A DNA stretch of 64,000 nt from Betaproteobacteria bacterium (GTDB lineage Bacteria > Pseudomonadota > Gammaproteobacteria > Burkholderiales > Casimicrobiaceae): contig JAAFIS010000010.1 of assembly GCA_013298695.1 (NCBI GenBank), forward strand, positions 1-64,000, read 5' to 3'. A program made the position numbers and the translations under genes. Positions 17,992 through 33,602 of the stretch are shown here, in pieces; position 1 is the first letter of the stretch; every line of letters starts with the position of its first letter. The notes beneath the pieces were generated by a model. The model worked only from the letters and a program-made list of their open reading frames with translations, had not been told where the DNA came from and did not search any database.

Positions 17992-18020
17992 TTGCTCAGC
18001 GCTATTTTCGCGGCTACATT
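17992..18020 (+). promoter_or_regulatory. candidate promoter of the TonB-dependent receptor gene
   Basis: TTGCTC (17992-17997), a 17-bp spacer and TACATT (18015-18020) give an ordinary but weak sigma-70 promoter. The transcription start would fall within the operator-like palindrome at 18024-18035, a layout that suits repression by a LacI-type protein. Confidence 0.45.
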
Positions 18021-18023
18021 TGT

Positions 18024-18035
18024 GCATACGAATGC
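18024..18035. promoter_or_regulatory. LacI-family operator-like site before the receptor gene
   Basis: GCATACGAATGC, an imperfect 12-bp palindrome with a central CG, 62 bp before the receptor start. It matches 11 of 12 bases of the perfect palindrome GCATACGTATGC at 21984-21995. Central-CG palindromes are the usual form of LacI/GalR-family sites, and a LacI-type regulator is encoded nearby at 24154-25215. Confidence 0.6.
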
Positions 18036-18096
18036 AATTTTCCGCGTGTTCATCACCCCGACCGAATCAAAAGCAAAACTGCAGAGGAGATACCGT

Positions 18097-20772
18097 ATGA
18101 GATGTACCTGTTCAACCGCTCCGATCCCCCTTAAGCGTAGGCCGTTAGCACTCCACCTAGCCTTGATGCTCAGCGCGTCCGCCTCGGTCGGCAGCTGGGG
18201 ACAGACACCGTCAGCGGCATCGCCAAATGCTGATGGCGAGATTAGCAAGCTTGAACGCGTCGAGGTCACTGTTCAGCGCAGACTCGAAGACAACCAAGAT
18301 GTTGCGGCATCTGTAAGTGCGATAAGCGCACGAAAACTCGCCGAACGAAACATTACCGACGTGTCGCAAATGGAGGGAATGTCGGCAGGTTTCACGTTTG
18401 GCCGATCAGGTACCGATGCACGACCTGCAATTCGTGGCGTACGTACTGAAAACGTTGGCGTCAACGGAGACACCACGATTGGATACTTTATTGACGGAAT
18501 CTACAAATCGCGCGCGCAGCAAGCGCTGGCAAGCTTTGTCGATGTAAATCGCGTCGAGATTCAGCGCGGCCCACAAGGGACACTGTACGGCAGAAACACT
18601 TTCGGCGGCAACGTCGCCGTGACAACACGCTCGCCGCAGATTGGCCTTTTCGACGCTTTCGGCAACTTTACAGTTGGGAATAACGCAAAAACCCGCCTTG
18701 ACGCAGGCGTTAACCTGCCGATCAACGACATGCTCGCATTCCGCGTCGCCGGTGTCGCCGATCGCTCTGATGGCTGGGTCAAGAACGATTTCAATTCGGC
18801 CGCAGATTTGTTCGACCAGAACTTGACCTACGGAAGGTTCAGTGTCCGTTTTGCGCCTAACGACAAGTTTGATGCGGTGCTTAAGGTAGACAACACCAAT
18901 CAAAAGGGCAACGGCGGCTCGGCGTTTGGATACAAACTGGTCGGTTCTTACTTGGATCGTGGCAGCTGCCAGCAGTTGTTTAACACGACGTTCACCGTGC
19001 TCAATACCCGTGGCGGCAACCGAGATGGCGTGAACGATTGCACGCGCACTGTCGGTGCGGGCAACGGAACTGGAACCAACGCGATTGGCACTAGCGTTGA
19101 TCTGGGAATTCCGATTTACGCCGCCGGCAACACAACACGTGTGGACAATGACTACCAGTCTTTTTTGAGGTTGAAGGATACAAGCAGCTCGCTGAACTTG
19201 ACCTACAGCGCAGATCGCTTCACATTCAAGTCAATCACCGGAACCGCTGAATTCGACGCCTCACGCTCACAGGACACTGATTTTTCTGCATCTACGATTG
19301 GTATCGATTACCAGAAAACACGTGCGAAAACGTTTTCGCAAGAGTTTCAAATCCTGTCCAATTCGACTGGGCCGCTGAGCTACCTTGCTGGGTATTACTA
19401 CTTCAAGGACGAACTCCAAGGTCTTTTCATTAATCAGCAGCTTCCACGCACCATTCGCTCGTCAGCGGCTGCACCGTTAGTGCTTGCACAAAACGGTGCT
19501 GGGTTCTTTGACAATCAAGAAGCAGAAACCGTTTCGAACGCCGTCTACGCACAGCTTAGCTATGAGTTCAACAAAGCGTTGGCCGTTTCATTTGGCGCGC
19601 GCTGGACGGAGGATAAGAAATCATTCCGGTTCGCGAACGCCAACTCTGTGCTGCCGCGCACCTCTGCAAATACGCCGGACGGCAACCAAATCACGTTGAA
19701 CACACCGCTTCCACCACAAAGTGCTTATGGCGCTTCAGGAACCTCCAATTGCAATCCTGCACGCGGACCTGGCTTTTATTGCGATCCTGCCAACCTAGCT
19801 ACGCTTTTCGGAGCCACTTACAACGACCAAAAGTTCACGAAATCGACTTTTAGAGGTGCGCTGGACTACAAACTCGATAAGAACAAAATGATTTATGCGA
19901 CCGTATCAAACGGCTTTCGGTCGGGAGGCTTTAACTCCGGGCAAGCGATTGAATCTGCGCGTACGTTCTTGCCAGAAGAGGTCACTGCAGTTGAGTTTGG
20001 TAGCAAGAATCGCTTCTTCAATGACACTTTGCAAGTGAATGCGGCGATTTTCAACAACGATTACAAGAATCTACAAGAGCAACGCCAAGTTCCGATTGGT
20101 ACGACAACGGTGTCGGTGATCTTCAACGCGGCGAAAGCGCGGGCGCGTGGCTTCGAGCTTGAGTTTGATTGGTTGCCGACTCGACGGTTAAGCGTAGGCG
20201 GTACGCTCTCGATTTTGGACGCGAAGTACACCAGCTTCCCCGATGCGCCCCTTCCGTTTGGAACGTCGATACTGGTTGCTGATGCATCGGCACCTGCAAC
20301 GGTCGTGAACGGCGTCGTGATCGCACCTGCGGGGCAGCGTCGCGTGTTCGCCCCGGGCTTTAACTGTGGATTGTTGAGCGGCACTGGCGGCGCAGGACAA
20401 CCAGCAGCGGGGTTTGGTTGTGATCTATCGGGTAGCCGAGTGCCTTATTCGCCGCGCTACCAAGGATCGTTAGCGGTAGGCTACGATCTTTTTGTGAGCG
20501 GGATGAAACTCACGCCGCTTGTCGCAGTCACTTTCTCGGATAGTTTTTACGGCCAACCCGCCAACGTAGACGCCGTCAAGCAAGCAGCATTTGCGAAAGT
20601 GGATCTGAAGCTCGGCGTTCAGGTAAATAAACAGTTCGGACTGCAGTTCTACGTAGACAACGTGAGTGACAAGCAAACCGCGACTCGATTTGTATGGGGT
20701 GGCGGCGGTGGGTTACAAGCAAGCTACGCACCACCGCGGCTCTACGGCATGAAGGTCTCTTACAAAATGTAA
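18097..20772 (+). CDS. TonB-dependent outer-membrane receptor
   Basis: Gated beta-barrel importer driven by TonB. The 891 residues have a signal peptide (hydrophobic LALHLALMLSASASVGSWG), a TonB-box-like region (LERVEVTVQRR), a plug domain with RGVRTENVG and VEIQRGPQGTLYGRNTFGG, and a 22-strand-type barrel closing with an aromatic-rich end (RLYGMKVSYKM). It resembles the large receptors used for carbohydrates and complex organics rather than classic siderophore receptors, though this is only a similarity of style. The ATG at 18097 is chosen for its strong GAGGAG 8 bp upstream. An operator-like palindrome in its promoter matches the one before the dehydrogenase operon, suggesting joint control. 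Confidence 0.9.
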   Translation: MRCTCSTAPIPLKRRPLALHLALMLSASASVGSWGQTPSAASPNADGEISKLERVEVTVQRRLEDNQDVAASVSAISARKLAERNITDVSQMEGMSAGFTFGRSGTDARPAIRGVRTENVGVNGDTTIGYFIDGIYKSRAQQALASFVDVNRVEIQRGPQGTLYGRNTFGGNVAVTTRSPQIGLFDAFGNFTVGNNAKTRLDAGVNLPINDMLAFRVAGVADRSDGWVKNDFNSAADLFDQNLTYGRFSVRFAPNDKFDAVLKVDNTNQKGNGGSAFGYKLVGSYLDRGSCQQLFNTTFTVLNTRGGNRDGVNDCTRTVGAGNGTGTNAIGTSVDLGIPIYAAGNTTRVDNDYQSFLRLKDTSSSLNLTYSADRFTFKSITGTAEFDASRSQDTDFSASTIGIDYQKTRAKTFSQEFQILSNSTGPLSYLAGYYYFKDELQGLFINQQLPRTIRSSAAAPLVLAQNGAGFFDNQEAETVSNAVYAQLSYEFNKALAVSFGARWTEDKKSFRFANANSVLPRTSANTPDGNQITLNTPLPPQSAYGASGTSNCNPARGPGFYCDPANLATLFGATYNDQKFTKSTFRGALDYKLDKNKMIYATVSNGFRSGGFNSGQAIESARTFLPEEVTAVEFGSKNRFFNDTLQVNAAIFNNDYKNLQEQRQVPIGTTTVSVIFNAAKARARGFELEFDWLPTRRLSVGGTLSILDAKYTSFPDAPLPFGTSILVADASAPATVVNGVVIAPAGQRRVFAPGFNCGLLSGTGGAGQPAAGFGCDLSGSRVPYSPRYQGSLAVGYDLFVSGMKLTPLVAVTFSDSFYGQPANVDAVKQAAFAKVDLKLGVQVNKQFGLQFYVDNVSDKQTATRFVWGGGGGLQASYAPPRLYGMKVSYKM

Positions 20773-20881: not shown

Positions 20882-21886
20882 CTATCTGCGGGCGCGAGAA
20901 AGTAGGTCGACCCCCATTTGAAGCATAAGGTGTGGCAAGTCGATCAGCACCCAGTTCTCTTCGATCGTATGCTCGCTGACCCGCCACCAATCCATAACCC
21001 GCATCCCTATCGGCGCATTAGTCGCCGAGACCCCCAAATATTCACCGCTATGAGTTGCAGTCACGCTCGGCCAGCCGGTAGAGGCGAGGTAGTGTCCTTC
21101 CGCGATACGTGCTCGATGGCTTCCGCCCTTCCGATCGGGGAACGCATGCAAAAATGGGCGCTGATGGTGCGTTTGAAAACCAGCGACGGTGCGTGCCGTG
21201 CCAATGCCGCACGGTCCGTACCACATCATCGTGGGGCTCCAATGTTCGTGCATGCCCATCGTGTCGAGGTTCACGCCGTCAAATCGCATCAGTGCCGCGA
21301 TCATCGCTTGCACACGCGTAACGGATGAGAGTGTTCGCGCTAGCGGTTGCGGACTCAGCAAGCAACCGCCGTGATCGGCCGGACCAGGTACCCAAAGTTC
21401 TAGCCCAGAGCTCGGCGGCAGAATCGGCCGCTTGATCTGTCTGCACAAATCGACGACGTCGATCAATATCCGAGCTTCAGCAATCTGGCCACCGACCACG
21501 CGATAGAACTCGCCGTAGCGGAGGTACAGAGTCTGGCTCGTCGGCTCGAGGCCAAACAGCGGCGCAACAAATTCACCCACATAGTATCCGTGGACAGCCA
21601 CCCAAATACCTTCGCCGCCGCAGAATCTGCCGTCGAAGGCTCCACCCATAAAGATATCGATCCGACGGCCTAAACCACGGAGTGCCTTGTTCAAAGGGGT
21701 GACCCATTGAGTGGCTATTGACTCGCGCCCCTGTAGTTGATTCACCGGATGGCTGACATGCCAGACAGCATCGTGTGCAACGTGTGCTTCGAGGTTAGGC
21801 GCTGTCAGATAGGCATAAACGAGCTCTTTGCTCGCGTGCAAAATTGATTCATCGGGGATCAGGATCGGGCCGTCGGTTTTTTGCAT
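20882..21886 (-). CDS. Double NTF2-like (SnoaL-type) protein 1
   Basis: 334 residues with two NTF2-like alpha+beta cone domains in tandem: the first about 15-165 (AVWHVSHPVNQLQG, then FGLEPTSQTLYLRYGEFYRV), the second about 185-330 (MHEHWSPTMMWYGPCGIG, then ENWVLIDLPHLMLQMG). SnoaL-like proteins of this build act as small-molecule cyclases, isomerases, dehydratases or hydrolases; the reaction here is unknown. The ATG at 21884-21886 is preferred to upstream ones at 21943 and 21952, which add basic, non-conserved residues, but no clear Shine-Dalgarno decides it. It is divergent from the dehydrogenase operon, across a shared operator, and a second protein of like architecture is encoded at 25212-26204. 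Confidence 0.8.
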   Translation of the reverse strand: MQKTDGPILIPDESILHASKELVYAYLTAPNLEAHVAHDAVWHVSHPVNQLQGRESIATQWVTPLNKALRGLGRRIDIFMGGAFDGRFCGGEGIWVAVHGYYVGEFVAPLFGLEPTSQTLYLRYGEFYRVVGGQIAEARILIDVVDLCRQIKRPILPPSSGLELWVPGPADHGGCLLSPQPLARTLSSVTRVQAMIAALMRFDGVNLDTMGMHEHWSPTMMWYGPCGIGTARTVAGFQTHHQRPFLHAFPDRKGGSHRARIAEGHYLASTGWPSVTATHSGEYLGVSATNAPIGMRVMDWWRVSEHTIEENWVLIDLPHLMLQMGVDLLSRARR

Positions 21887-21983
21887 AGTTGAACTGTAGT
21901 GCGTTGTGTAGCGCAGAGTGCGTCTGAGGTGGATGTGTGCCATGGACACCAATGAAACAACACAACATACACTCGACCAAATT

Positions 21984-21995
21984 GCATACGTATGC
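21984..21995. promoter_or_regulatory. LacI-family operator-like site in the divergent promoter
   Basis: GCATACGTATGC is a perfect 12-bp palindrome with central ACGT, placed in the 144-bp gap between the leftward NTF2-like gene and the rightward dehydrogenase operon. A one-base variant lies before the receptor gene. It is a good candidate site for the LacI-type regulator encoded three genes downstream. Confidence 0.65.
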
Positions 21996-22030
21996 TACAG
22001 TCAATCCAGTTTTCCATTGGAGCGCGATTT

Positions 22031-23350
22031 ATGGTTCGTTATCTCAAATCTGGTCAAACTGCGCAGGCCCACGCTGCCGCAGACAGCAAAGTGCGAGCCA
22101 CGGTCGAGGCCATCATCGCAGACATTGAGAAGCGAGGCGACGCGGCCGTGCGCGACTATTCGGCAAAATTCGATCAATGGTCGCCAGAGCATTTCATTCT
22201 TTCCCAGAACGAGATTGAAGCCGCCGTGAAAAAGCTCTCGCCGCGAGAAATTGAAGACATCAAATTTGCGCAGCACCAGATTCGAAACTTTGCTCAGATC
22301 CAGCGCAATAGCATGCAGGATGTTGAAATAGAAACGCTTCCTGGCGTTGTGCTCGGCCACAAACATATTCCGGTGAACGCGGTTGGCTGTTACGTTCCCG
22401 GTGGAAAGTATCCCTTGATCGCGTCGGCTCATATGAGTGTTCTTACCGCGAAGGTCGCCGGTGTGCCGCACGTTGTGTCGACCGCGCCGCCCTATCAGGG
22501 CGCACCGCATCCGGCGATTGTTGCCGCGATGCATTTTGCCTGCGCAGATCAGATTCTCGTTCTCGGCGGCGTGCAGGCCGTGGCCGCTATGGCAATCGGC
22601 ACCGAATCGATAAGCGCGGTTGATATGCTCGTCGGACCAGGAAACATGTTTGTCGCTGAAGCAAAGCGTCAGTTGTTTGGTAGAGTCGGCATTGACCTTT
22701 TTGCGGGGCCGACCGAGACGTTGATCATCGCCGACGACACTGTGGACGCCGAAATGTGCGCGGTCGATCTACTCGGGCAGGCAGAGCACGGACCTACCAG
22801 TCCGGCTATTTTGTTGACGACTTCCGAGTCGCTCGCGCGGGCAACTATGGCAGAGGTCGAGCGCCAGCTTAAAGTTTTGCCCACAGCTGCAATAGCATCG
22901 ATTGCGTGGGCAGAGCACGGCGAGGTGATCGTGTGCGACAGCGACGATGAGATGGTTTCTAAGGCTGATGAAATCGCAAGCGAGCACGTTCAAGTGATGA
23001 CGCGAGACCCCGATTATTTCTTGGATCGAATGACTAACTTCGGTGCGCTCTTTTTGGGGCCGCGCACTAACGTGAGCTTTGGTGATAAGGTAATCGGCAC
23101 CAATCACACGCTGCCCACAAATAAAAACGCGCGCTACACCGGGGGGTTATGGGTTGGGAAGTTCTTGAAGACCTGTACCTATCAGCGTGTTACTAACGAC
23201 CAAGCGTCCGCAGACATTGGTGCGGTGTGCTCGCGTTTGTGCCACATGGAGAATTTCGCGGGTCACGGCGAGCAAGCGAACCTACGCGTTCGCCGCTATG
23301 GTGGACGCGACGTCCCGTGGTATCAACCTGTAGTCGCTCAATCGGTGTAG
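22031..23350 (+). CDS. Histidinol-dehydrogenase-family protein, resembling HpsN (sulfopropanediol dehydrogenase)
   Basis: 439 residues of the zinc- and NAD-dependent HisD superfamily. The metal and catalytic set is intact: Gln and His in QAEHGP, Glu-His in ASEHVQV, Asp in FGDKVIG and the late His in FAGHGEQA. The substrate-side motifs [16 protein letters not shown] and [17 protein letters not shown] differ from biosynthetic HisD (typically PNHVLPT) and recall the HpsN branch, which oxidises 2,3-dihydroxypropanesulfonate; this subfamily match is from memory. There are no histidine genes nearby and no sulfolactate lyase genes, so the true substrate is open; I infer oxidation of a primary or secondary alcohol. 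Start ATG 22031 lies 36 bp after the operator palindrome. The SDR gene follows after 6 bp. Confidence 0.8.
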
Positions 23351-23356
23351 GTTGGG

Positions 23357-24157
23357 ATGCAATCCGTGGCACGCAATACCGGGGACCCACGCGCTGCGTT
23401 ACCCGTTATGCCAAGCTTCAGGCTAGACGGAAAACGCGCTCTCGTGACAGGCGCTGGACGTGGCATTGGTCTCGCCGCGTCAGTTGCCCTTGCCGCGCAG
23501 GGTGCGGCGATCACACTGGTGGCTCGATCAGAAGCCGAAATTGTGGAGGCAGCGGAAGGGATTTGCTCGCGGGGTCAAGTTGCTGTCGCTTCCGTGCTTG
23601 ACGTGACGGACAGCGCACAGTGCGCAACTTTTTTTGCGAGAGAAGCACCGTTTGATATTGTTGTTAACAGTGCCGGTATGAATCGCCCGGCGCCACTCGC
23701 CGAAACGGACGACGAGACGATTGCAGCGATTTACTCGCTCAATGTGCTCGCTGTCTACCGCATTATCCGCTCGGCGACCGAGGGCATGATCGCATCATCT
23801 CGCGGCGGCAGCATCATTAGTATCAGTTCGCAAATGGGGCACGTGGGCGCCGCGTCGCGCAGCGTTTATTGCGGCACTAAACACGCACTTGAAGGCATGA
23901 CCAAGGCGCTAGCTTGGGAGCTCGGCACGCATCGAATCCGAATCAATACCATTTGCCCAACGTTTATCGATACACGAATGACCTCTGCGATGCTTGCCGA
24001 TACAGCATTCCACAAGTCGGTCGTGGAACGCATCGCTTTAGGGCGCGTGGGTCAGGTGGAGGACGTGATGGGTGCTATCTGTTTTCTTGCGGCTGACGCG
24101 AGCGCTATGGTGACTGGATCAGCGCTTATGGTTGATGGTGGGTGGAGCGCGCAATGA
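23357..24157 (+). CDS. SDR-family NAD(P)-dependent oxidoreductase
   Basis: Classical short-chain dehydrogenase of 266 residues: nucleotide loop TGAGRGIG, NSAG near residue 105, catalytic Ser in ISISSQMG, and the YCGTK pair of Tyr and Lys. It ends in VTGSALMVDGGW, standard for the family. The upstream ATG (23357) is used because it is only 6 bp from the dehydrogenase stop; the ATG at 23408, giving MPSFRLDGKRALVTG, is an equally plausible start. It ends in an ATGA overlap with the LacI gene. It probably catalyses a second oxidation or reduction in the same pathway. Confidence 0.88.
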   Translation: MQSVARNTGDPRAALPVMPSFRLDGKRALVTGAGRGIGLAASVALAAQGAAITLVARSEAEIVEAAEGICSRGQVAVASVLDVTDSAQCATFFAREAPFDIVVNSAGMNRPAPLAETDDETIAAIYSLNVLAVYRIIRSATEGMIASSRGGSIISISSQMGHVGAASRSVYCGTKHALEGMTKALAWELGTHRIRINTICPTFIDTRMTSAMLADTAFHKSVVERIALGRVGQVEDVMGAICFLAADASAMVTGSALMVDGGWSAQ

Positions 24158-25215
24158 GTCAGCCCCGCGATGGTCGAGCCGTCACGTCTATTGATGTCGC
24201 AAAAGCGGCTGGCGTATCGCAGTCCGCGGTCAGCCGCACGTTCACCCCAGGGACTGCTGTTTCCGAGGCAACGCGACTCAAGGTTCTTGATGCAGCAAAA
24301 AAACTTGGCTATCGCCCGAACGCGATCGCGAGAACCCTTTCGACCAGCCGCTCACGGATCATAGGCGTCGTGCTCTCTACACTTGACAACCAGTTTTACC
24401 CCGCTGCGATTGAGCACCTCTCTCGTTCACTTCAAGAGCACGGCTTGCACGTGATGTTGTTCTTTGCGGAAGGCCGCGACGTAGATGGCGCGTTGTCACA
24501 ACTCTTAACGTATCAGCTTGACGGCGTGGTTATTGCCTCCGCTACGCTTTCGTCACGGCTCGCCCGGGAATGCACTGCAATGGGCATCCCAGTGGTAATG
24601 TTCAACCGGAGCGCAGCGAGCACGCAAACAAGCTCAGTCACGAGTAACAACATTGAAGGTGGACGGCTTGCGGCGAACCATTTGCTCGATTGCGGTTGCG
24701 ATCGGATCGCCTACCTTGCCGGCCGCAGCGACTCTTCGACCAACCGTGATAGAGAAGCGGGCGTTAATCTTGCGCTTCTTGAGCGCGGCCATACGCTGGT
24801 GTTTCGCGAAGACGGGTCTTACGAACCTGCAATGGCCAAAGAAGCGACGCGCAGGCTCATGAGCGCGCCACAACCGCCAGACGGCCTAATCGTTGCAAGC
24901 GATTACATGGCTTTTGCGGCGCTAGATACTTTACGCAATGAGCTCGGTTTCGAGGTTCCTTCCCAAGTTTGTGTCGTATCGTTCGACGATGTGCCCGCCG
25001 CAGCGTGGGGTGCCTACGCGCTCACCACGGTCGCTCAGTCGATCCCAGCGATGGTGCACTCCACGGTGAGTATTCTTTTAGAACAATTTAGCGATCAAGC
25101 CATGGTAGCCCGCGATGTCATTGTTTCGTCGCGACTGATCGTTCGAAGCACCACGAGCGCTGCTCGCGTTGAAGGTCAAGTTAAGGGGCAAAAATCTGCG
25201 AGACACGCCGAATGA
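24154..25215 (+). CDS. LacI/GalR-family transcriptional regulator
   Basis: 353 residues: an N-terminal helix-turn-helix (SIDVAKAAGVSQSAVSRTF), hinge helix (PNAIARTLSTSRS) and a periplasmic-binding-protein-like effector domain (about 65-335) with IIGVVLSTLDNQFYP and GLIVASDYMAF. It overlaps SDR by 4 bp and the next gene by 4 bp, so it is made as part of the operon it probably represses. The GTG at 24142 is a possible alternative start, but the ATG at 24154 has TGGAG suitably placed. Likely targets are the central-CG palindromes at 18024-18035 and 21984-21995. The inducer is unknown, presumably a sugar or pathway intermediate. Confidence 0.92.
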   Translation: MSQPRDGRAVTSIDVAKAAGVSQSAVSRTFTPGTAVSEATRLKVLDAAKKLGYRPNAIARTLSTSRSRIIGVVLSTLDNQFYPAAIEHLSRSLQEHGLHVMLFFAEGRDVDGALSQLLTYQLDGVVIASATLSSRLARECTAMGIPVVMFNRSAASTQTSSVTSNNIEGGRLAANHLLDCGCDRIAYLAGRSDSSTNRDREAGVNLALLERGHTLVFREDGSYEPAMAKEATRRLMSAPQPPDGLIVASDYMAFAALDTLRNELGFEVPSQVCVVSFDDVPAAAWGAYALTTVAQSIPAMVHSTVSILLEQFSDQAMVARDVIVSSRLIVRSTTSAARVEGQVKGQKSARHAE

Positions 25216-26204
25216 ATGCAGCAACAAATTTAGAAAATTCTCCGCGAGGAATGCGCGGATTCGATGCCGAATTTGTTGATTTGCCAGACTACATCACCCG
25301 CATCACACACCGGATATGGGAAGAGCGGCAAATTGAACTCATACAGCAATACTACAGTGACCCGTGCGTCGTCGAAACGCCTGCATCAGTGACGACTACG
25401 CCGCAAAGCGTCATTGACGGCACTCACTCAACCTTGAAAGCATTCCCAGATCGCGAGCTGTTGGCCGAAGACATTATCTGGTCGGGCGACGCTGAGCGCG
25501 GCTATCTCTCGTCGCATCGTATCGTGTCGCCAATGACTCATTTGGGTGAAGGCGTTTTTGGTGCACCGACTGGCCGCAAAGTGCGTGTGCGTACGATCGC
25601 CGACTGTTGGTGCATCGAGAACCGGATATCACATGAATGGCTGGTGCGCGACCAAGCGGCGATTGCCCAGGCCATTGGCCTCGGGCCCGAGTCATTGGCA
25701 GCGGCGTGGCTAGAAACACGCGGTGGTCGCTGGCACCACCCCGTGGCGCCGAGCGCTCCGCCGCCATATGAAAATCACGTCGACACTGGCGTTGTCGGAA
25801 CGTTCGCAGTAGCTACCTATAGGTCGCTAGCCACCGGCGACATCTCCAGCGCATTCAATCGTTGTTATGACCGGGCAATTACGGCGGTTACCCCGGGTGA
25901 GCGCTACCGATATGGCGTCGCTGAGCTTGGCGAGTTTTGGCGCGAGTATCGTGAAGCGTTCGCTGATATTGCACTTCAGATCGAGCATTGCATTGTGCGC
26001 CAGGATCGAAACGCGCCGGTGCGAGTTGCAATGCGTTGGCGACTATCCGGTGTCCATCGCGGCGGCGGAAAATTCGGCGAACCGACCGGACGCGCAATCG
26101 AGACAATGGGAATCACACATTTGGAAATGCGAAACGGACGGATCTCACGTGAATGGTTGTTGCTAGATGAGGTCGCGCTTTGGATGCAAGTCTTAAGCGC
26201 GTGA
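25212..26204 (+). CDS. Double NTF2-like (SnoaL-type) protein 2
   Basis: 330 residues with two NTF2-like domains, roughly 15-160 and 180-325. Each ends in a similar strand (ISHEWLVRDQAAIAQ, then ISREWLLLDEVALWM), which marks the internal repeat. Sequence style is that of the SnoaL/ester-cyclase group, acting on small carbonyl or polyketide-like compounds, but no reaction can be assigned. It overlaps the LacI gene by 4 bp and lies 32 bp ahead of the ABC importer. Together with the protein at 20882-21886 this gives four NTF2-like domains in one locus. Confidence 0.78.
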   Translation: MNAATNLENSPRGMRGFDAEFVDLPDYITRITHRIWEERQIELIQQYYSDPCVVETPASVTTTPQSVIDGTHSTLKAFPDRELLAEDIIWSGDAERGYLSSHRIVSPMTHLGEGVFGAPTGRKVRVRTIADCWCIENRISHEWLVRDQAAIAQAIGLGPESLAAAWLETRGGRWHHPVAPSAPPPYENHVDTGVVGTFAVATYRSLATGDISSAFNRCYDRAITAVTPGERYRYGVAELGEFWREYREAFADIALQIEHCIVRQDRNAPVRVAMRWRLSGVHRGGGKFGEPTGRAIETMGITHLEMRNGRISREWLLLDEVALWMQVLSA

Positions 26205-26236
26205 GCCAAACTCTCAATACTGCGGAGAAATGCTAA

Positions 26237-27328
26237 GTGGCACGAGTTCAGCTCAATGAAGTTTCTCGCGTGTGGAATAGTGCAGGCATACGCACCGTCG
26301 GGCTGAAGCCGTTGTCACTCGATATCGCGGATGGTGAATTCATTGTGTTGCTTGGTCCGTCAGGCTGCGGCAAAACTACCACCATGCGCATTGTCGCTGG
26401 CTTAGAGGAATCTAGCGCTGGCGAAGTATGGATTGGTGATCGCTGCGTGAATTCGCTCGAACCCAAGGATCGTGATGTAGCGATGGTGTTTCAGAGCTAT
26501 GGTCTGTATCCCAACATGACAGTGCGTGAAAACATCGCGTTTCCCCTAAAGATTCGCGGCACACCACGCGCTGACATTGAGCCCGCAGTGGCGCGAGCGG
26601 CCGCTATGGTGGAGCTCAACGATTTGCTGGATCGCAAACCGAAAGCACTGTCAGGCGGTCAACGCCAGCGCGTTGCACTTGCGCGCGCAATCGTTCGAAA
26701 ACCAGCGGTGTTTTTGATGGATGAGCCGCTGTCAAATCTAGACGCGAAGCTGCGTGTGAGCATGCGATCGCATATCAAGCACCTCCACCACACACTGAAA
26801 ACGACCACTATCTACGTGACGCACGACCAGATCGAAGCGATGACCTTAGCCGACCGTGTGGTCGTGATGAGCAAAGCCGAAATTCAGCAAATTGGCACTC
26901 CGCAGCAAATCTACAACGACCCTGCGAACACCTTCGTAGCGAGCTTTGTGGGGTCACCAGCGATGAACTTGATTGAGGGTGAATTGCTGGCGGGAGTTTT
27001 CCGTTGCAACGGAATCGAGATCGCCGGATTCGATGCTGTTCGCGACGGGCGTGTGCTGTTGGGCGTGCGGCCCGAGGACGTTGCCGTGCAGGCCGCAGCG
27101 ACGCGCGATGTCGATTCACAGCGATACGTGCTGGTCAACGCCGACGTATTCACCTGCGAGCTGACGGGTGACGCTACGTTAGTGGTTTGTGACGTCCGAG
27201 GGCAACGCATCACTGCAAAGGCAGATAAAAACGTACGCTATGAAATCGGAGACAAAGTGGGTTTAGGCTTTTCAGCCATACACAGTTTTTTATTTGATGC
27301 GGTGACGCAAGATCGAATTCGCAAATGA
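26237..27328 (+). CDS. ABC transporter ATP-binding protein, MalK/UgpC type
   Basis: Cytoplasmic ATPase of a CUT1-type carbohydrate importer. The 363 residues show Walker [11 protein letters not shown]-loop [11 protein letters not shown], signature [14 protein letters not shown], Walker [13 protein letters not shown] and the switch His in [18 protein letters not shown]-type regulatory domain follows from about residue 240. The start is GTG at 26237 with GGAG about 10 bp upstream. The binding protein and both permeases are encoded directly downstream, so the importer is complete. Confidence 0.94.
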
Positions 27329-27374
27329 AGATGTCGAAGAGATCGCGCATTGCGCCGCTTGGTCTGAAGGGCGA

Positions 27375-28625
27375 ATGATGAACGCAACGTTTTTACGTGC
27401 AGGTTTAGTTGTGTGGTTAATCGCCGCGCCACTAGTCGCGCAAGCCAAATGTGGTTTGATTTCGGGAAAAGGCGAGATCAACGTTATCAGTAATGCGTTT
27501 TCTGCGCTTAATGACTTGGCAAAAGAAATGGAAAGCTGCAGTCGTCCCGGATTGAAAGTCACGGTGAAAATCACACCGGAAGCGCGCGTCGAGACCGAGC
27601 GAGCGTTCGCTACGGCAAGCGCGTCTCCGTTCGCTGCCGCTGTCGTATCGATGGGCACATTTTCGGGCTTGTATAGCCGCGGTCAGCTGCAAAACATGAC
27701 CGATTTAGCGAAAAAATATCGGTCACGCTACAACATTGAGGAATCAATGCTCGTGCGCGTCGATGGTGAAGTGATGGCAATTGCGTTCATGAAAAACACC
27801 CAAAATCTGTTCTACCGAAAGGACATTTTTGATAAGCACAATCTTAAGGTGCCTGTAACCTACGCAGAAATGCTTGCCACCGCTGCCACGATTAAATCCA
27901 AAGAATCAAGCATCGATTTCCCGATTGCACAGACGTTCGCTAAGGGATTCGATAGTGCGACCGAATTCGTAAATCTGCTTGCTTCGCACGGTGGTCGGAT
28001 GTTTAAAGCGGGTAGTGCGCGGCCCGAATTCAATAGCGACGCTGGAATTCAGGCAATTGAAACCATGCGTGCACTGTTGCCCTTCATGACGCCTAATGCA
28101 CTGGCTTCGAACTCCGATGATGTGATGAATCAGTTCCAGCAAGGCAAAGCGGCGATGGGTGTGCTCTGGGCCTCACGCGCGGAACGCATGGATGATCCGA
28201 GAGCGTCGAAGGTTGTCGGGAAAATGGAGTTCGCAGCGGCACCCAAAGCCAACGCAAGCGGGCGGGTTGCGGCACACCTGTGGTGGGATGGGGTGGTGAT
28301 GCCCAAAAATAGCGGGCAAGATCGTGACGTCGTGTTTCAAGTGTTGATGGAAGCGCTTGACGAGGAAACAACCCGAGCTGCCAACGACCGTGCAATCTGG
28401 GTCCGCTCTATCTACCAGCCAACCCGATTTGGCGCGGGCGTTACAGCCACAGCTCAAGCGGGCGCGCCGATATGGCCGACCGAGCCGTTTTTTGGATTAG
28501 CGCACGGCGAAATTGGAAAGGTACTGCCTGAGGCACTTGCAGGAAAGCTCACACCGAAAACCGCGCTTGACACTGCCGCCGCAGCCTATGAAAAATCCGC
28601 CGCCGACCACGGTTTCATTCGCTGA
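27375..28625 (+). CDS. Extracellular solute-binding protein (CUT1 ABC importer)
   Basis: 416-residue periplasmic binding protein with a Sec signal peptide (hydrophobic LVVWLIAAPLVAQA, cleavage near AQA-KC) and no lipobox. The mature part has the family-1 pattern: INVISNAFSALNDLAKEME, then VDGEVMAIAFMKNTQNLFYRK and QFQQGKAAMGVLWAS. Two Cys early in the mature chain (KCGL and ESCSR) could form a disulfide. The ATG at 27375 is used; a second ATG follows directly. It presumably hands the ligand, after its passage through the receptor, to the two permeases encoded next. Confidence 0.9.
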   Translation: MMNATFLRAGLVVWLIAAPLVAQAKCGLISGKGEINVISNAFSALNDLAKEMESCSRPGLKVTVKITPEARVETERAFATASASPFAAAVVSMGTFSGLYSRGQLQNMTDLAKKYRSRYNIEESMLVRVDGEVMAIAFMKNTQNLFYRKDIFDKHNLKVPVTYAEMLATAATIKSKESSIDFPIAQTFAKGFDSATEFVNLLASHGGRMFKAGSARPEFNSDAGIQAIETMRALLPFMTPNALASNSDDVMNQFQQGKAAMGVLWASRAERMDDPRASKVVGKMEFAAAPKANASGRVAAHLWWDGVVMPKNSGQDRDVVFQVLMEALDEETTRAANDRAIWVRSIYQPTRFGAGVTATAQAGAPIWPTEPFFGLAHGEIGKVLPEALAGKLTPKTALDTAAAAYEKSAADHGFIR

Positions 28626-28642
28626 GTCAACCCACCTGCACC

Positions 28643-29629
28643 TTGAAAACAGCCACTTTCATTCGTTTTTCTAGCGCATCGGTGCTACTCATGCTGCTGC
28701 TGATGGCGGTACCACTGGCAATGACTTTCTACTTTTCGCTGCAACAGTGCGCGCTCGACTTGGAGCTGGTTACAGTAACGCAAACCGGACCGTTTGGGAG
28801 TCAAGCGGTGGTGACCCAGCGCGCGCGACAAGATGCAAATGGGAAACCGATTGAACGATGCGAATTCATCGGGTTCAGACATTACGAGCGAATTCTTGGG
28901 CTCGATAATGACACTACCACCAGCGCAGCAAAAAACGAGGCACCCAACGAATTCTTTGCAGCGCTTAAATTTACGTTAACCTACATCATCAGCACCGCCC
29001 CGTTGGTACTCGCGATTGGTCTGCTTCTCGCGTTGGGAGTGCAGCGATTGTCGACGCGCTGGCGCGCGGTATTTATCACCTCAGCCCTTTTGCCGTTCAT
29101 CGTCACGCCCGTGGTCGCGGCGTTATCGATCAAATGGTTGTTTCGAGATAATGGATTGATCCCGTTTCTCCTTTCAAAAATCGGCGTGCAAGTCTTCTGG
29201 ATGGCTGAAGCATGGTCGGCCCAGCTTTTGATCGTTCTATATGGTGTATGGCATTCAGTGCCGTTCGCGTTCATTGTGCTCTTCGCAGGATTGCAGTCAG
29301 TACCACAGGATTCGCTCGAAGCGGCAACCATTGATGGCGCTAGCAAGTGGCAAAGGTTCATCTACGTCACATTGCCACACCTAGCGCCGCTCGTTGTGTT
29401 CGTGCTGCTCATTCACGTGATGGATGCGTATCGCGTCTTTGAGCCAATCGTCGTTCTCACACAAGGCGCGTTTACGACGAGCGTGCAATATCTGACGTAT
29501 TTTGTGCTGTTGCAAGAAAACAATCCGTTTAAGGCGAGTGCGGCTTCGGTACTAACGATGGCCGGTATTGCCGTACTGCTAGTGCCGCTTCTCATCAAAA
29601 CCTACCGTGAACAACGCGGGATCGCATAG
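28643..29629 (+). CDS. ABC sugar permease, MalF/UgpA type
   Basis: Inner-membrane subunit of 328 residues with about six helices and the EAA loop (EAATIDGASKWQRF) that docks on the ATPase. The start is TTG at 28643 (MKTATFIRF). Between helices 1 and 2 there is an approximately 85-residue periplasmic insert with two Cys (QQCALD and ERCEF), longer than in minimal CUT1 permeases and reminiscent of a small MalF-type periplasmic loop that may touch the binding protein. Confidence 0.9.
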   Translation: MKTATFIRFSSASVLLMLLLMAVPLAMTFYFSLQQCALDLELVTVTQTGPFGSQAVVTQRARQDANGKPIERCEFIGFRHYERILGLDNDTTTSAAKNEAPNEFFAALKFTLTYIISTAPLVLAIGLLLALGVQRLSTRWRAVFITSALLPFIVTPVVAALSIKWLFRDNGLIPFLLSKIGVQVFWMAEAWSAQLLIVLYGVWHSVPFAFIVLFAGLQSVPQDSLEAATIDGASKWQRFIYVTLPHLAPLVVFVLLIHVMDAYRVFEPIVVLTQGAFTTSVQYLTYFVLLQENNPFKASAASVLTMAGIAVLLVPLLIKTYREQRGIA

Positions 29630-29654
29630 GTCACGAAAGGATCAAAGAGCCGCA

Positions 29655-30482
29655 ATGAATTTTTCGAAGCGAAATCAAGTTTGGATTGTGGTGGCGCTCG
29701 CGATCTGGCTGGTGATCGCTTCGTTACCTGTTGTGTGGACAGCGATCATTTCGTTACGGAGCTACGTTGATGCGTTCGCGAACCCAGTCAAGTGGACTGC
29801 ACCGGTAACGTTTGAGAATTACCGCGCCCTTTGGGTGGATCGCGAGTTTTACAAAAATTTCGTCAACACGGCGATTGTGACACTAGGCACGGTAAGTATT
29901 TCGCTCACTGTAGGTTGCTTAGCGGCGTACGCTCTGGCGCGATATCGCGGAGCCTTGGGGTTCTGGTTGTTGCTGCTTGCACTCGTTTTTCGCGCGCTCC
30001 CACATTCAACGTTATTGCCATCGTTTTTCACGATGTTCGATGCACTTGGCATCCGCAATACGTACATCGCGTTGATCTTTGTTTTGGTGGCCATCAACCA
30101 GCCGTTCACCATCTGGATGTTGCGCTCTTTTTTTATGAACATTCCAGCGGAGCTTGACGAGGCGGCGATGGTAGATGGCTGCACCCGGTTTCAAGCCTTT
30201 CGCCGAGTAGTTATTCCTGTCATGTGGCCAGGAATCGTAACGACTGGTTTGTTTAGTTTCTTGCTTGCGTACAACGATTTTTTGCTGAGCTCAGCGCTTA
30301 CCAATGCCGAGAAAATGACGATGCCAGCCGCAATCGCCAATTCGATTTCCGCAGAAAGCGAGGCACTTTTGATGCAAGGTGTTGCCGGCGCGGTGAGCAT
30401 TACGCTGCCGCTGATTATTTTGGTCGTGCTTTTTCAGCGCCAAATCGTTTCTGGGTTAACTCAAGGCGCCGTGAAGGGCTGA
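29655..30482 (+). CDS. ABC sugar permease, MalG/UgpE type
   Basis: Second permease subunit, 275 residues, six predicted helices, EAA loop DEAAMVDGCTRFQAFRRVV. The ATG at 29655 is chosen because it follows AAGAGCC and directly precedes the first basic and hydrophobic segment; an upstream in-frame ATG at 29607 lies inside the preceding gene. The bicupin gene begins 7 bp after the stop. Confidence 0.9.
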   Translation: MNFSKRNQVWIVVALAIWLVIASLPVVWTAIISLRSYVDAFANPVKWTAPVTFENYRALWVDREFYKNFVNTAIVTLGTVSISLTVGCLAAYALARYRGALGFWLLLLALVFRALPHSTLLPSFFTMFDALGIRNTYIALIFVLVAINQPFTIWMLRSFFMNIPAELDEAAMVDGCTRFQAFRRVVIPVMWPGIVTTGLFSFLLAYNDFLLSSALTNAEKMTMPAAIANSISAESEALLMQGVAGAVSITLPLIILVVLFQRQIVSGLTQGAVKG

Positions 30483-30489
30483 ACTAGAC

Positions 30490-31638
30490 ATGTTGATGCA
30501 AGATGTGGTGCTCGCACCCGAAGCGCTCGCGGTACGCCATTTACGTGCGTCGGATTACGTTCCAGATACCGAGGCATTTGTTGATTGCCGATTGCCAGGG
30601 TCGATGCCCAAGGAAAACTATTCGATGATCGGGCCTGGTGTGACCCAGAGCGCGAAGCAATTTATCAACTTGCAGGAGCCGCATGGATTTAACGTTGGTG
30701 CGGCTGGCGTTCACCCTGGCATCACCAATAACCTGCATTTGCATTTCACTAGTGAAACTTTTGTCGCAGCGAGTGGTGCCTACACTCTTCGCTGGGGCGT
30801 TCGCGGCGACGAGGGTTCTCTGCACTTAGACACTGGCGACATCGTTGTCATGCCGACATGGATGTTTCGCGGATTCTCGAGCGCGAGCGATGAGTACGGT
30901 TTTTTGATGACGGTGCTTGGCGGCGACGACACCGGCGGGATCATTTGGAGCCCTGATGTGCTGCAACGTGCGCGCGGTACCGGTCTCTGGCTCACCCGCG
31001 AGAATCTACTCGTCGATACGAGCTCCGGCGCTAGCCCTCCGCCGGAAGAGGAATGTATGCCGCTCCTGGGCGATTTGGATGTCAAGCAGTTGCGGCATTG
31101 GCAACCGGAGGAGATGGCCGAACGCGTGCTTCGCAAGCAGGATCGCGACTTTCGCTCTGCAACGTTAGACACATCGGCTGGTGCCCGTTGGCAACTCGCA
31201 CCAGCGGTTGGATATGGAGTGACTCAGCGACGAGATCATTGGCCACGCGTCGGCGAGCCGCAGGGTTTTTCGATCGAATGGGCGAAACTTGAACCGGGAG
31301 ACAGCAGCGCGGTGTTTCGGACGACCGAAAAAATGGTTTTGATTAGCGTGTTTGGACGACTACGGGTGCGACTCAATCGCGCACCCAATACCCTCGAGTG
31401 CGTGCTTGGCCCGCGCGACATCCTTTCCATCCCGTCCGGGGTGTGGCGCCAGTTCATAAACGAAGATAGTGAATTGGTCGCGGCGGAGACGTTAATCGTA
31501 TTGCCAGGCGATGCTAGGAAGAAAATCGATTGGGAGTCCGGAATTCGCGATGCGGCAGCCGTCAACGGCGTCACGCTGGATGCAGATGGACGCATGGCGC
31601 CGAGTCGGCTGCTGCCACCAGGCATGCGACTCGCGTAA
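30490..31638 (+). CDS. Bicupin (double cupin) protein
   Basis: 382 residues with two cupin barrels, about 60-160 and 245-345. The first keeps an HLHFTSETFV motif, with His-x-His and Glu placed as metal ligands, followed by GDIVVMPTWMFRGF. The second (PGDSSAVFRTTEKMVLISVFG, DILSIPSGVWRQF) lacks the His pair and is probably structural. The build recalls bicupin dioxygenases and sugar isomerases; which, if either, is not clear. It is translated directly after the permease genes, so it most likely acts on the imported compound. Confidence 0.8.
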   Translation: MLMQDVVLAPEALAVRHLRASDYVPDTEAFVDCRLPGSMPKENYSMIGPGVTQSAKQFINLQEPHGFNVGAAGVHPGITNNLHLHFTSETFVAASGAYTLRWGVRGDEGSLHLDTGDIVVMPTWMFRGFSSASDEYGFLMTVLGGDDTGGIIWSPDVLQRARGTGLWLTRENLLVDTSSGASPPPEEECMPLLGDLDVKQLRHWQPEEMAERVLRKQDRDFRSATLDTSAGARWQLAPAVGYGVTQRRDHWPRVGEPQGFSIEWAKLEPGDSSAVFRTTEKMVLISVFGRLRVRLNRAPNTLECVLGPRDILSIPSGVWRQFINEDSELVAAETLIVLPGDARKKIDWESGIRDAAAVNGVTLDADGRMAPSRLLPPGMRLA

Positions 31639-31720
31639 TTGTGAGAATGCAGCTCCCAGGGAAAACAGTGCCGCGCGCGTTAACCGTTCGATTAGCCGTT
31701 TGTTTGTGCGTGCGTGAATC

Positions 31721-32461
31721 GTGAGGACTGTAAAAATCATCTCACTGCCCGGAACGCTGCTCGACGGGAGTAGCCTACAACCAATGTTGGAGATGCTCAC
31801 TGAAATTCTTGCTCGCTATGGGATTGAGGTTCGTACGCGTACCGTAATTCTTGGCGACAGCGCAACGCTTGAAGGCGAGTGTCGACGACTCGAGGCGTTC
31901 GCTGACGAGCCGACATGGTGGCTTGGACACTCTCTTGGCGGTATCGTCTCACTCGCGCTCGCGCGTCTTGCGCCGCGAGTCGTGCGTGGCATAGTAACGC
32001 TTGCATCCACCGCGCGCGCTGACGCTTGTCAGAGTGCTGAGCGTCGTCGGTTAGAGCTCGCACAGGCAGAGGAAGACGGGCATCCGATGTCAATATCGCT
32101 CGCTCTTAAAAGTACCTTTGATGTTGAGCGGGGCACACCTCTAGGCCGCACATTGATGCGTCAAGCGGCGCATGTAGGGCTCGCGCGCTTTCGGATGCAA
32201 ACGCGTTACGCGCTCGAGCGAGCTGATCAACGCGTGCAAACTTTCTTGACGCTACCTCTGCTCGCAATTTCTGGGGCGCTCGACGCGGTTTGCCCGCCAG
32301 ACCGTAGTGATGAAGTCGCGCAGGTTTCTACACAAGGCGCGCACATCTGCATTGAGGGAGCTGGTCATTTATTACCGATAACGCACGCCGAAGTCGTCGC
32401 GCAACACATCGCTACTTTCATCAATCACCATCATGGACTCCATCATGCGCACATCGACTGA
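31721..32461 (+). CDS. Alpha/beta hydrolase
   Basis: 246 residues of the alpha/beta hydrolase fold with the full triad: nucleophile Ser in GHSLGG near residue 70, Asp in SGALDAVCPP and His in GAGHLLP. The N-terminus ISLPGTLLDGSSL is of the MenH/BioH-like kind. The start is GTG at 31721; 82 bp separate it from the bicupin. It would cleave an ester, thioester or C-C bond. Its end overlaps the MetE-type gene by about 17 bp, so the two are coupled. Confidence 0.85.
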   Translation: MRTVKIISLPGTLLDGSSLQPMLEMLTEILARYGIEVRTRTVILGDSATLEGECRRLEAFADEPTWWLGHSLGGIVSLALARLAPRVVRGIVTLASTARADACQSAERRRLELAQAEEDGHPMSISLALKSTFDVERGTPLGRTLMRQAAHVGLARFRMQTRYALERADQRVQTFLTLPLLAISGALDAVCPPDRSDEVAQVSTQGAHICIEGAGHLLPITHAEVVAQHIATFINHHHGLHHAHID

Positions 32462-33602
32462 TCGAATTCTCACGACCCATGTCGGCTCATTGCCGCGAAA
32501 CCAAGCCGTTGTTGACTTCATCTTTGCAAGAGAACGAGGTGAAACGATAGACGAATCTGGTTGCCGCGCGGCGCTATCAGAAGCAGTCCAAGACGTCGTA
32601 GAGCGGCAAGTGCGTGCAGGCATCGATATCGTTTCCGACGGCGAAATGAGCAAAATTAGCTACGCCACGTACATCAAGGATCGTTTCACTGGCTTCGATG
32701 GCGACAGCCCGCGGCGGACGCCCGGCGACCTGCTTGAATTTCCAAGTTTTATGAAAAAACTCTCGGGTGGCGGAGGAACCCCAAATTATCGACGCCCGTG
32801 TTGCATCGGACCGATAGCTGTGAAATCTATGCAACCACTGTCTGACGACATTAGTTTCGTCAAGACCGCAGCTAGCAAATCGGGCGCGACCGAAATTTTC
32901 ATGAATGCTGCGTCGCCTGGCGTGATCGCGCTGTTTCAGCCCAATCAACATTACGCTGACGATGACCAGTATCTGGAAGCCCTAGCGCATGCGATGGCGC
33001 ATGAGTACAAAGCCATCGTTGATGCCGGACTTATTTTGCAGCTTGATTCGCCAGACCTTGGTTTGGGCAGGCACATGATGTATCGTGATCTTGACGAATC
33101 AGCGTATTTGTCGCGCATTGAGCGTCACGTTGAGGCACTGAATTTAGCGTTGGCAACTATCCCAGCAGACCGCGTGCGCATGCACGTGTGCTGGGGCAAC
33201 TATGAAGGACCGCACCACAAGGACATCGGTTTGGAGACTATTTTCTCAATAGTGATGAAGGCCAAACCACAAGCGCTACTTTTTGAGAGCAGTAATCCCA
33301 GGCACGCGCACGAGTGGGAGGTCGTACGCGATATGAAGTCCGCGATTCCAGATGACAAAATTCTGATCCCGGGAGTACTTGATTCCACCACTAACTTTAT
33401 CGAACATCCTCGTCTCGTTGCTCAACGTTTGAGCAAGTTCATAGAGATTGTGGGTCGTGAGCGCGTGATTGCCGGCACTGACTGCGGTTTCGGTACGTTC
33501 GCGGGATTCGGGGTGGTGGACCCTGAAATCGTGTATGCAAAGTTCGCCGCAATGGCGGAGGGAGCAGAGATAGTTACAAAGCAGTATTTCAAAGACAGCT
33601 AG
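32445..33602 (+). CDS. MetE C-terminal-domain-like zinc methyl/alkyltransferase
   Basis: 385 residues related to the catalytic half of cobalamin-independent methionine synthase and to epoxyalkane:coenzyme M transferases. It starts with ILTTHVGSLPR and keeps the zinc ligands: His and Cys in MHVCWGNYEG, Glu in LLFESSN and Cys in AGTDCGFGTF. The N-terminal folate half of MetE is absent. Stand-alone members transfer or remove alkyl groups at sulfur; the place of this one in a sugar-type catabolic locus is unusual. The ATG at 32445 fits the usual N-terminus; an in-frame ATG at 32433 is the alternative. It is the last gene of the operon, and no clear terminator follows. Confidence 0.85.
   Translation: MRTSTDRILTTHVGSLPRNQAVVDFIFARERGETIDESGCRAALSEAVQDVVERQVRAGIDIVSDGEMSKISYATYIKDRFTGFDGDSPRRTPGDLLEFPSFMKKLSGGGGTPNYRRPCCIGPIAVKSMQPLSDDISFVKTAASKSGATEIFMNAASPGVIALFQPNQHYADDDQYLEALAHAMAHEYKAIVDAGLILQLDSPDLGLGRHMMYRDLDESAYLSRIERHVEALNLALATIPADRVRMHVCWGNYEGPHHKDIGLETIFSIVMKAKPQALLFESSNPRHAHEWEVVRDMKSAIPDDKILIPGVLDSTTNFIEHPRLVAQRLSKFIEIVGRERVIAGTDCGFGTFAGFGVVDPEIVYAKFAAMAEGAEIVTKQYFKDS

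Follow-up and report, generated by a model that had tools for sequence, protein, structure and literature searches.

Introduction

The closest described relatives of the protein studied here are MetE, the core methionine synthase MesD of Shewanella (PDB 3RPD) and XecA, the epoxyalkane:CoM transferase (EaCoMT) of Xanthobacter Py2. The zinc ligands and homocysteine-contact residues of MetE and MesD are listed in the accessible part of PMC7857596. Many aerobic bacteria, and haloarchaea as well, encode stand-alone MetE-type proteins, which are annotated as methionine synthases. The accessible text of PMC12478193 (2025) describes stand-alone MetE homologues with four conserved residues in aerobic marine bacteria and calls their function "questionable".

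We investigated a MetE-like protein encoded in the window, a stretch of 64,000 nucleotides from a betaproteobacterium of the Casimicrobiaceae (contig JAAFIS010000010.1). A literature search, with subscription papers and preprints mostly outside its coverage, found no published description of the gene cluster to which it belongs, and the part of PMC12710314 that is accessible holds nothing on the MetE-like gene.

Results

Frame, domain and predicted fold of the MetE-like protein

The open frame at 32433-33602 (plus strand) encodes 389 amino acids, and a second in-frame ATG at 32445, which is the start given in the initial annotation, gives 385; either start can be right, and residues are numbered here by the 389-residue frame. 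Homologues of 36-81% identity retain the same motifs, indicating that this is no chance frame. Meth_synt_2 was the only domain found by the Pfam search (46.3 bits, cut-off 21), which reported no N-terminal, folate-binding MetE domain, in agreement with the initial annotation of the window. That annotation had also placed the gene last in its operon, in coupling with a hydrolase. The end of the hydrolase frame, at 32461, lies inside the MetE-like frame, the overlap being 17 nt with the start at 32445 or 29 nt with the start at 32433, and the next plus-strand frame of at least 150 amino acids in the ORF list begins at 34574. This latter frame (34574-38788), located 3' of the cluster, encodes a 1404-residue repeat-rich protein that appears secreted or surface-bound. 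Terminator-like sites in the region numbered 16, against 16.3 expected by chance, and a promoter scan likewise gave no excess.

Structure prediction had been proposed as a check on the zinc site and pocket, and the AlphaFold2 model (mean pLDDT 79.7) has a MetE-type fold. Its top match was MesD (3rpd; Z 32.4 over 320 residues, 23% identity), and it also matched the C-terminal, catalytic half of MetE (Z about 31), 1ypx (Z 27.2, 21% identity) and UroD-type proteins (Z about 21). The Pfam search gave no match to the UroD family, to which MtaA-type proteins would belong.

Zinc ligands and other conserved residues

The initial annotation had described the zinc ligands as intact. H251, C253, E285 and C351 indeed align with the MetE ligands H641, C643, E665 and C726 (Table 1). 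S19, E71, D205, H251, C253 and C351 are invariant in all 44 family rows of the tree described below, and the two exceptions at Glu285 (L074 and L075) carry Pro or Ser. H16, R249, D264, H291, H293 and H325 are each present in 44 of 44 family rows and in none of the 6 outside rows; the model's secondary structure places them in loops that come after barrel strands, near the zinc ligands. An acid-base role for these family-only residues would be a guess.

Table 1. Positions in the window of the cluster genes and of the codons for key residues of the MetE-like protein.
Feature	Position	Strand	Basis or remark
TonB-dependent receptor	17992..20772	+	homologue near MetE-like gene in many relatives
Tandem SnoaL protein, divergent	20882..21952	-	sequence comparison
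HpsN-like dehydrogenase, HisD fold	21992..23350	+	motif GKYPL, without the sulfonate-binding His of HpsN
SDR oxidoreductase	23357..24157	+	Pfam
LacI-family regulator	24142..25215	+	Pfam
SnoaL/NTF2-like protein ("Snoa2")	25212..26204	+	Pfam
UgpC-type ABC ATPase	26237..27328	+	NCBIfam 441 bits, cut-off 432
Solute-binding protein, sugar type	27375..28625	+	Pfam; weak match to sugar binders
ABC transporter permease 1	28643..29629	+	Pfam
ABC transporter permease 2	29607..30482	+	49% to Ruegeria carbohydrate ABC permease
Two-domain cupin	30490..31638	+	HxH-xxx-E metal motif in first domain
Alpha/beta hydrolase	31721..32461	+	Pfam; overlaps MetE-like gene
Stand-alone MetE-type (Meth_synt_2) zinc protein	32445..33602	+	ORF list, Pfam, alignment, predicted fold; frame may begin at 32433
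Ser19, homocysteine-contact position (MetE S433)	32487..32489	+	alignment; role from accessible part of PMC7857596
Glu71, homocysteine-contact position (MetE E484), Arg in XecA	32643..32645	+	alignment
Asp205, homocysteine-contact position (MetE D599)	33045..33047	+	alignment
His251-x-Cys253, zinc ligands	33183..33191	+	alignment; 44/44 rows
Glu285, zinc ligand	33285..33287	+	alignment; 42/44 rows
Cys351, zinc ligand	33483..33485	+	alignment; 44/44 rows

The MetE-like protein belongs to a separate family

A stem of 2.63 changes per site (support 100/99) separated 44 rows, the window protein included, from the rest of a 50-row tree. The 44 are betaproteobacterial, alphaproteobacterial, actinobacterial, enterobacterial and haloarchaeal proteins. 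Six rows fell outside the family: MetE, XecA, the MesD-type paralogue from the genome of the window protein, and three distant ones; the order of these outside branches is unsure because the tree was midpoint-rooted and the outside branches, including the single XecA row, are long. Reference rows for MesA, MesB and MesC were left out. Five rows were dropped, of which L027, L030, L032 and L033 were in the wrong frame and L052 was a fragment. L026 and L031 had no frame (the place of L026 being that of L080, retained), L053 was shorter than the 300-residue minimum, and for L054 the split frame was left out. L040, which agrees with contig G006:C590 in length and match coordinates, is that contig. 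One genome, G197, contains at least four full-length copies of the family (L066, L068, L069 and L077) in differing settings.

Alignment A1 has 28 members, each of which matches NCBIfam methionine-synthase models, and none comes near any cut-off. Best by E-value in A1 is the Halobellus member, with 118.9 bits against a cut-off of 406, and the window protein scored 100.8 bits against its closest such model (cut-off 406). Judged from tree and profile scores, the MetE-like protein is a member of a separate family, apart from full MetE, the MesD-type paralogue and EaCoMT. The counter-case named in the initial annotation, an ordinary methionine synthase whose N-terminal half is a separate protein, was rejected on the family, the scores and the genome's other synthases.

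Contig C12 of the genome carries a split MetH, with the Met_synt_B12 domain in one frame and the S-methyl_trans domain in another, and contig C21 encodes a MesD-type protein (L001 1489-2517). The latter scored 566 bits against NCBIfam PRK09121 (cut-off 392), a model that we take to represent MesD, whereas the window protein scored 55.3 bits, below this cut-off. A search of the genome for MesX (PF08908) gave no match, and this search matched no control either. Given the split MetH and the MesD-type protein, a housekeeping role of the window protein in methionine synthesis is unlikely, and there is no apparent need for another methionine synthase.

Content of the gene cluster

The sugar-type operon proposed in the initial annotation is borne out by the UgpC-type ATPase, which exceeds its NCBIfam cut-off, the solute-binding protein and the permeases. 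The cupin model gave broad cupin matches only, among them oxalate decarboxylase (Z 22.1, rmsd 6.9) and quercetinase YxaG (Z 21.2, rmsd 3.1). Several tandem SnoaL/NTF2 proteins per cluster were observed (the two in the window, on opposite strands, and those of L034 and L039), and Halobellus has five, of which the four full-length ones are 63-71% alike.

The dehydrogenase scored 380.6 bits against HpsN and 256.5 bits against the best HisD (histidinol dehydrogenase) chain. HpsN carries the motif G-R-Y-A/S-H with the sulfonate-binding His126, according to the accessible text of PMC11382572. The corresponding position reads GKYPL in the window, in its close relatives and in another genus of the order (g66), and GKFPM in Ruegeria and Rhizobium; a separate HpsN-like copy in G001, which served as a positive control, reads GRYAH. 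A DHPS/sulfonate pathway, suggested by the HpsN score, was rejected because GKYPL lacks the sulfonate-binding His. The absence of this His indicates that the cluster substrate is likely a related but non-sulfonated compound with neighbouring hydroxyl groups. Speculative candidates are compounds of the mycosporine or gadusol type, head groups of betaine lipids, sulfonium compounds and O-methyl sugar acids. The GKYPL/GKFPM dehydrogenases form a subgroup (the window protein and L089-L095), and close relatives of the window dehydrogenase (E<=1e-140) were detected in 27 of 199 genomes, mostly without a MetE-like gene nearby.

Conservation of the cluster

Ruegeria, Octadecabacter, Marinovum and a marine Rhizobium carry homologues of the window genes at 20882-33602 in the same setting, although their loci are without a TonB receptor of this kind. 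The cluster is also present in named MAGs, several of them pond- or lake-derived by their titles, in members of the window's genus and in five genomes of g66. Its core partners are the HpsN-like dehydrogenase, the SDR, the LacI regulator, the SnoaL-type proteins, the cupin and the alpha/beta hydrolase, and an HpcH- or RraA-type aldolase is often present in the homologous clusters. In G001, there is no hydrolase between the cupin and the MetE-like gene.

Partner genes were counted within 12 kb of the MetE-family gene at 56 loci, the window excluded; these loci are unequal in length and not independent, and one of them (L042) starts about 100 bases before the gene, while another (L066) has none of these partners. 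Among the loci of at least 56% identity, 18 of 23 contained a SnoaL-type gene and 15 of 23 a TonB receptor. At the 33 loci below 56%, the SnoaL-type gene was found once (Halobellus) and a TonB receptor of this kind was not found; most of these loci lacked any partner tested. Partner genes track the subfamily, and since most of the more distant loci lack the tested partners, function may differ between members across the whole family. The window SnoaL protein occurs in 7 of 199 relatives, including all five genomes with a MetE-like protein of at least 60% identity; the hypergeometric value for this co-occurrence, 8.5e-9, overstates it because the genomes are related.

Two genomes have the cluster but no MetE-like gene linked to it. 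The contig of G002, a member of the window's genus, ends 363 bases past the hydrolase with no MetE start before the end, and a search of the genome found no MetE-like gene; because the contig ends there, a piece may be missing. In G197, the 20 kb examined on contig C175 contained the cluster and no match to the MetE-like gene was found on that contig, the other copies being elsewhere in the genome.

Neighbours of outlying family members

In two genomes, the MetE-like gene adjoins LtnD-, OtnK-, OtnC- and OtnI-type genes (L067 9908-18503; L069 4394-10163). The names are assigned from Pfam families, and the genes presumably represent a four-carbon sugar-acid pathway. At three sphingomonad loci (L037, L056 and L062), an NTF2-like gene and an IclR regulator come after the MetE-like gene, with an aminomethyltransferase, MetF and PurU nearby. 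We take the aminomethyltransferase to be of the LigM/DesA type and the setting to be C1 release from methoxylated aromatics. On Dietzia and Rhodococcus plasmids (L038 and L057), a 2-oxoglutarate oxygenase, a phytanoyl-CoA-type dioxygenase and an HD protein are encoded after the gene, an arrangement that recalls the PhnY/PhnZ phosphonate oxygenases.

Discussion

We tentatively propose that the MetE-like protein is a catabolic zinc-dependent homocysteine methyltransferase, that is, a demethylase, a reading to which we give slightly less than even confidence. Counted in its favour were the conserved zinc and contact residues, the separate family, the retention of the cluster between the window's genus and Alphaproteobacteria, the tracking of the subfamily by partner genes, the coverage of methionine synthesis by other enzymes, and the location of outlying members beside C1/demethylation or sugar-acid genes. 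Counted against it were the clusters without a linked MetE-like gene (G197 C175 and G002), the partner-poor loci below 56% identity and the two rows without E285. The initial annotation had suggested that the substrate or an intermediate carries a transferable alkyl group. This fits the conserved linkage to a catabolic cluster, and the alkyl transfer itself stays putative; a pathway enzyme of this kind would most likely have homocysteine as acceptor and a methyl group as cargo. The three homocysteine-contact residues are retained and EaCoMT has lost two of them, pointing to homocysteine, rather than CoM, as the probable acceptor.

In the scheme that we infer, for acceptor, direction, methyl donor and order of the pathway alike, the cluster would import a methylated, polyol- or sugar-acid-like compound through the TonB receptor and the UgpC-type ABC transporter under LacI control. 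The zinc ion, bound by H251, C253, E285 and C351, would activate the thiolate of homocysteine held by S19, E71 and D205, and this thiolate would accept a methyl group carried by the substrate or by an intermediate, yielding methionine and a demethylated product. Protonation of the leaving group may fall to the barrel-rim histidines H16, H291, H293 and H325. The HpsN-like enzyme, the SDR, the SnoaL proteins, the cupin and the hydrolase would then oxidise and cleave the carbon skeleton. No homocysteine-recycling system was found in the cluster, and a stoichiometric catabolic flux into methionine would presumably need one, which also speaks against this reading.

Like a core methionine synthase of the Mes type, the window protein has the zinc and homocysteine-contact residues, all of them retained, in a stand-alone catalytic domain, and its best fold match is MesD. 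It might thus be a core biosynthetic enzyme that uses a general donor (a methyl-corrinoid protein or other) and stands in the cluster as a sink or by chance; the accessible text of PMC12478193 proposes that aerobic marine bacteria might produce their homologues when cobalamin is limiting. We consider this unlikely, because the genome already has a split MetH and a MesD-type protein, the gene lies in a catabolic cluster with a LacI regulator that is conserved in different classes, and the protein scores far below the methionine-synthase cut-offs. Deleting a mes-like gene, which may or may not belong to the family, left the DMSP response of Phaeobacter inhibens intact (PMC12366255, accessible part); this species has a MetE-like protein, PGA1_c27430, of uncertain placement.

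The initial annotation had likened the protein to EaCoMT, in which case a thiol other than homocysteine would open an epoxide or take a larger alkyl group. XecA is of the same fold family and stand-alone architecture, is 26.5% identical over the protein and is likewise encoded with SDRs in a catabolic plasmid cluster. The proposed likeness is nevertheless not supported: XecA has Asn and Arg at the positions of Ser19 and Glu71, which are kept in 44 of 44 family rows, and it falls outside the family in the tree. Among the genes of the window cluster, moreover, no disulfide oxidoreductase like that beside xecA was recognised, and we regard an EaCoMT-type transferase as distinctly unlikely. Slightly more doubtful still is a zinc enzyme without alkyl transfer, a lyase, hydrolase or isomerase acting on a sugar-like substrate via the extra histidines. 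The long stem and the family-only invariant residues in post-strand loops (H16, R249, D264, H291, H293 and H325) would suit such an enzyme, but it would not need invariance of the three residues that contact a thiol amino acid.

The conserved catabolic cluster offers a testable biological setting for the family and argues against the annotation of its members as methionine synthases. If the demethylase reading is true, it would add a third route, beside the tetrahydrofolate and corrinoid enzymes, by which aerobes pass on the methyl groups of growth substrates. More speculatively, and on balance rather improbably, MetE-fold zinc enzymes of proteobacteria, actinobacteria and haloarchaea could form a new class of aerobic demethylases that work without cobalamin or folate and pass the methyl group of a growth substrate straight to homocysteine, the substrate here being a methylated polyol or sugar acid from algae or plants that enters via the TonB and ABC systems.

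Among solved structures, the best sequence match is 1YPX of Listeria (74 bits with the family profile), a putative B12-independent methionine synthase whose function, to our knowledge, is not established. DmtS of Novosphingobium, considered as a possible MetE-like demethylase, was rejected because it is VanA-like (accessible part of PMC8091115). Like the window protein, MesD consists of one catalytic domain and keeps both the zinc ligands and the homocysteine contacts, but the window protein is far below the PRK09121 cut-off and sits in a catabolic cluster. With MetE, the window protein shares the fold of the C-terminal half and all seven residues, whereas it is without the N-terminal folate-binding half and is only 13-16% identical to the solved MetE chains listed. 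XecA shares the stand-alone MetE-type domain, the zinc ligands and a location in a catabolic cluster, its own being on a plasmid, but differs from the window family in two homocysteine-contact residues and in its place in the tree.
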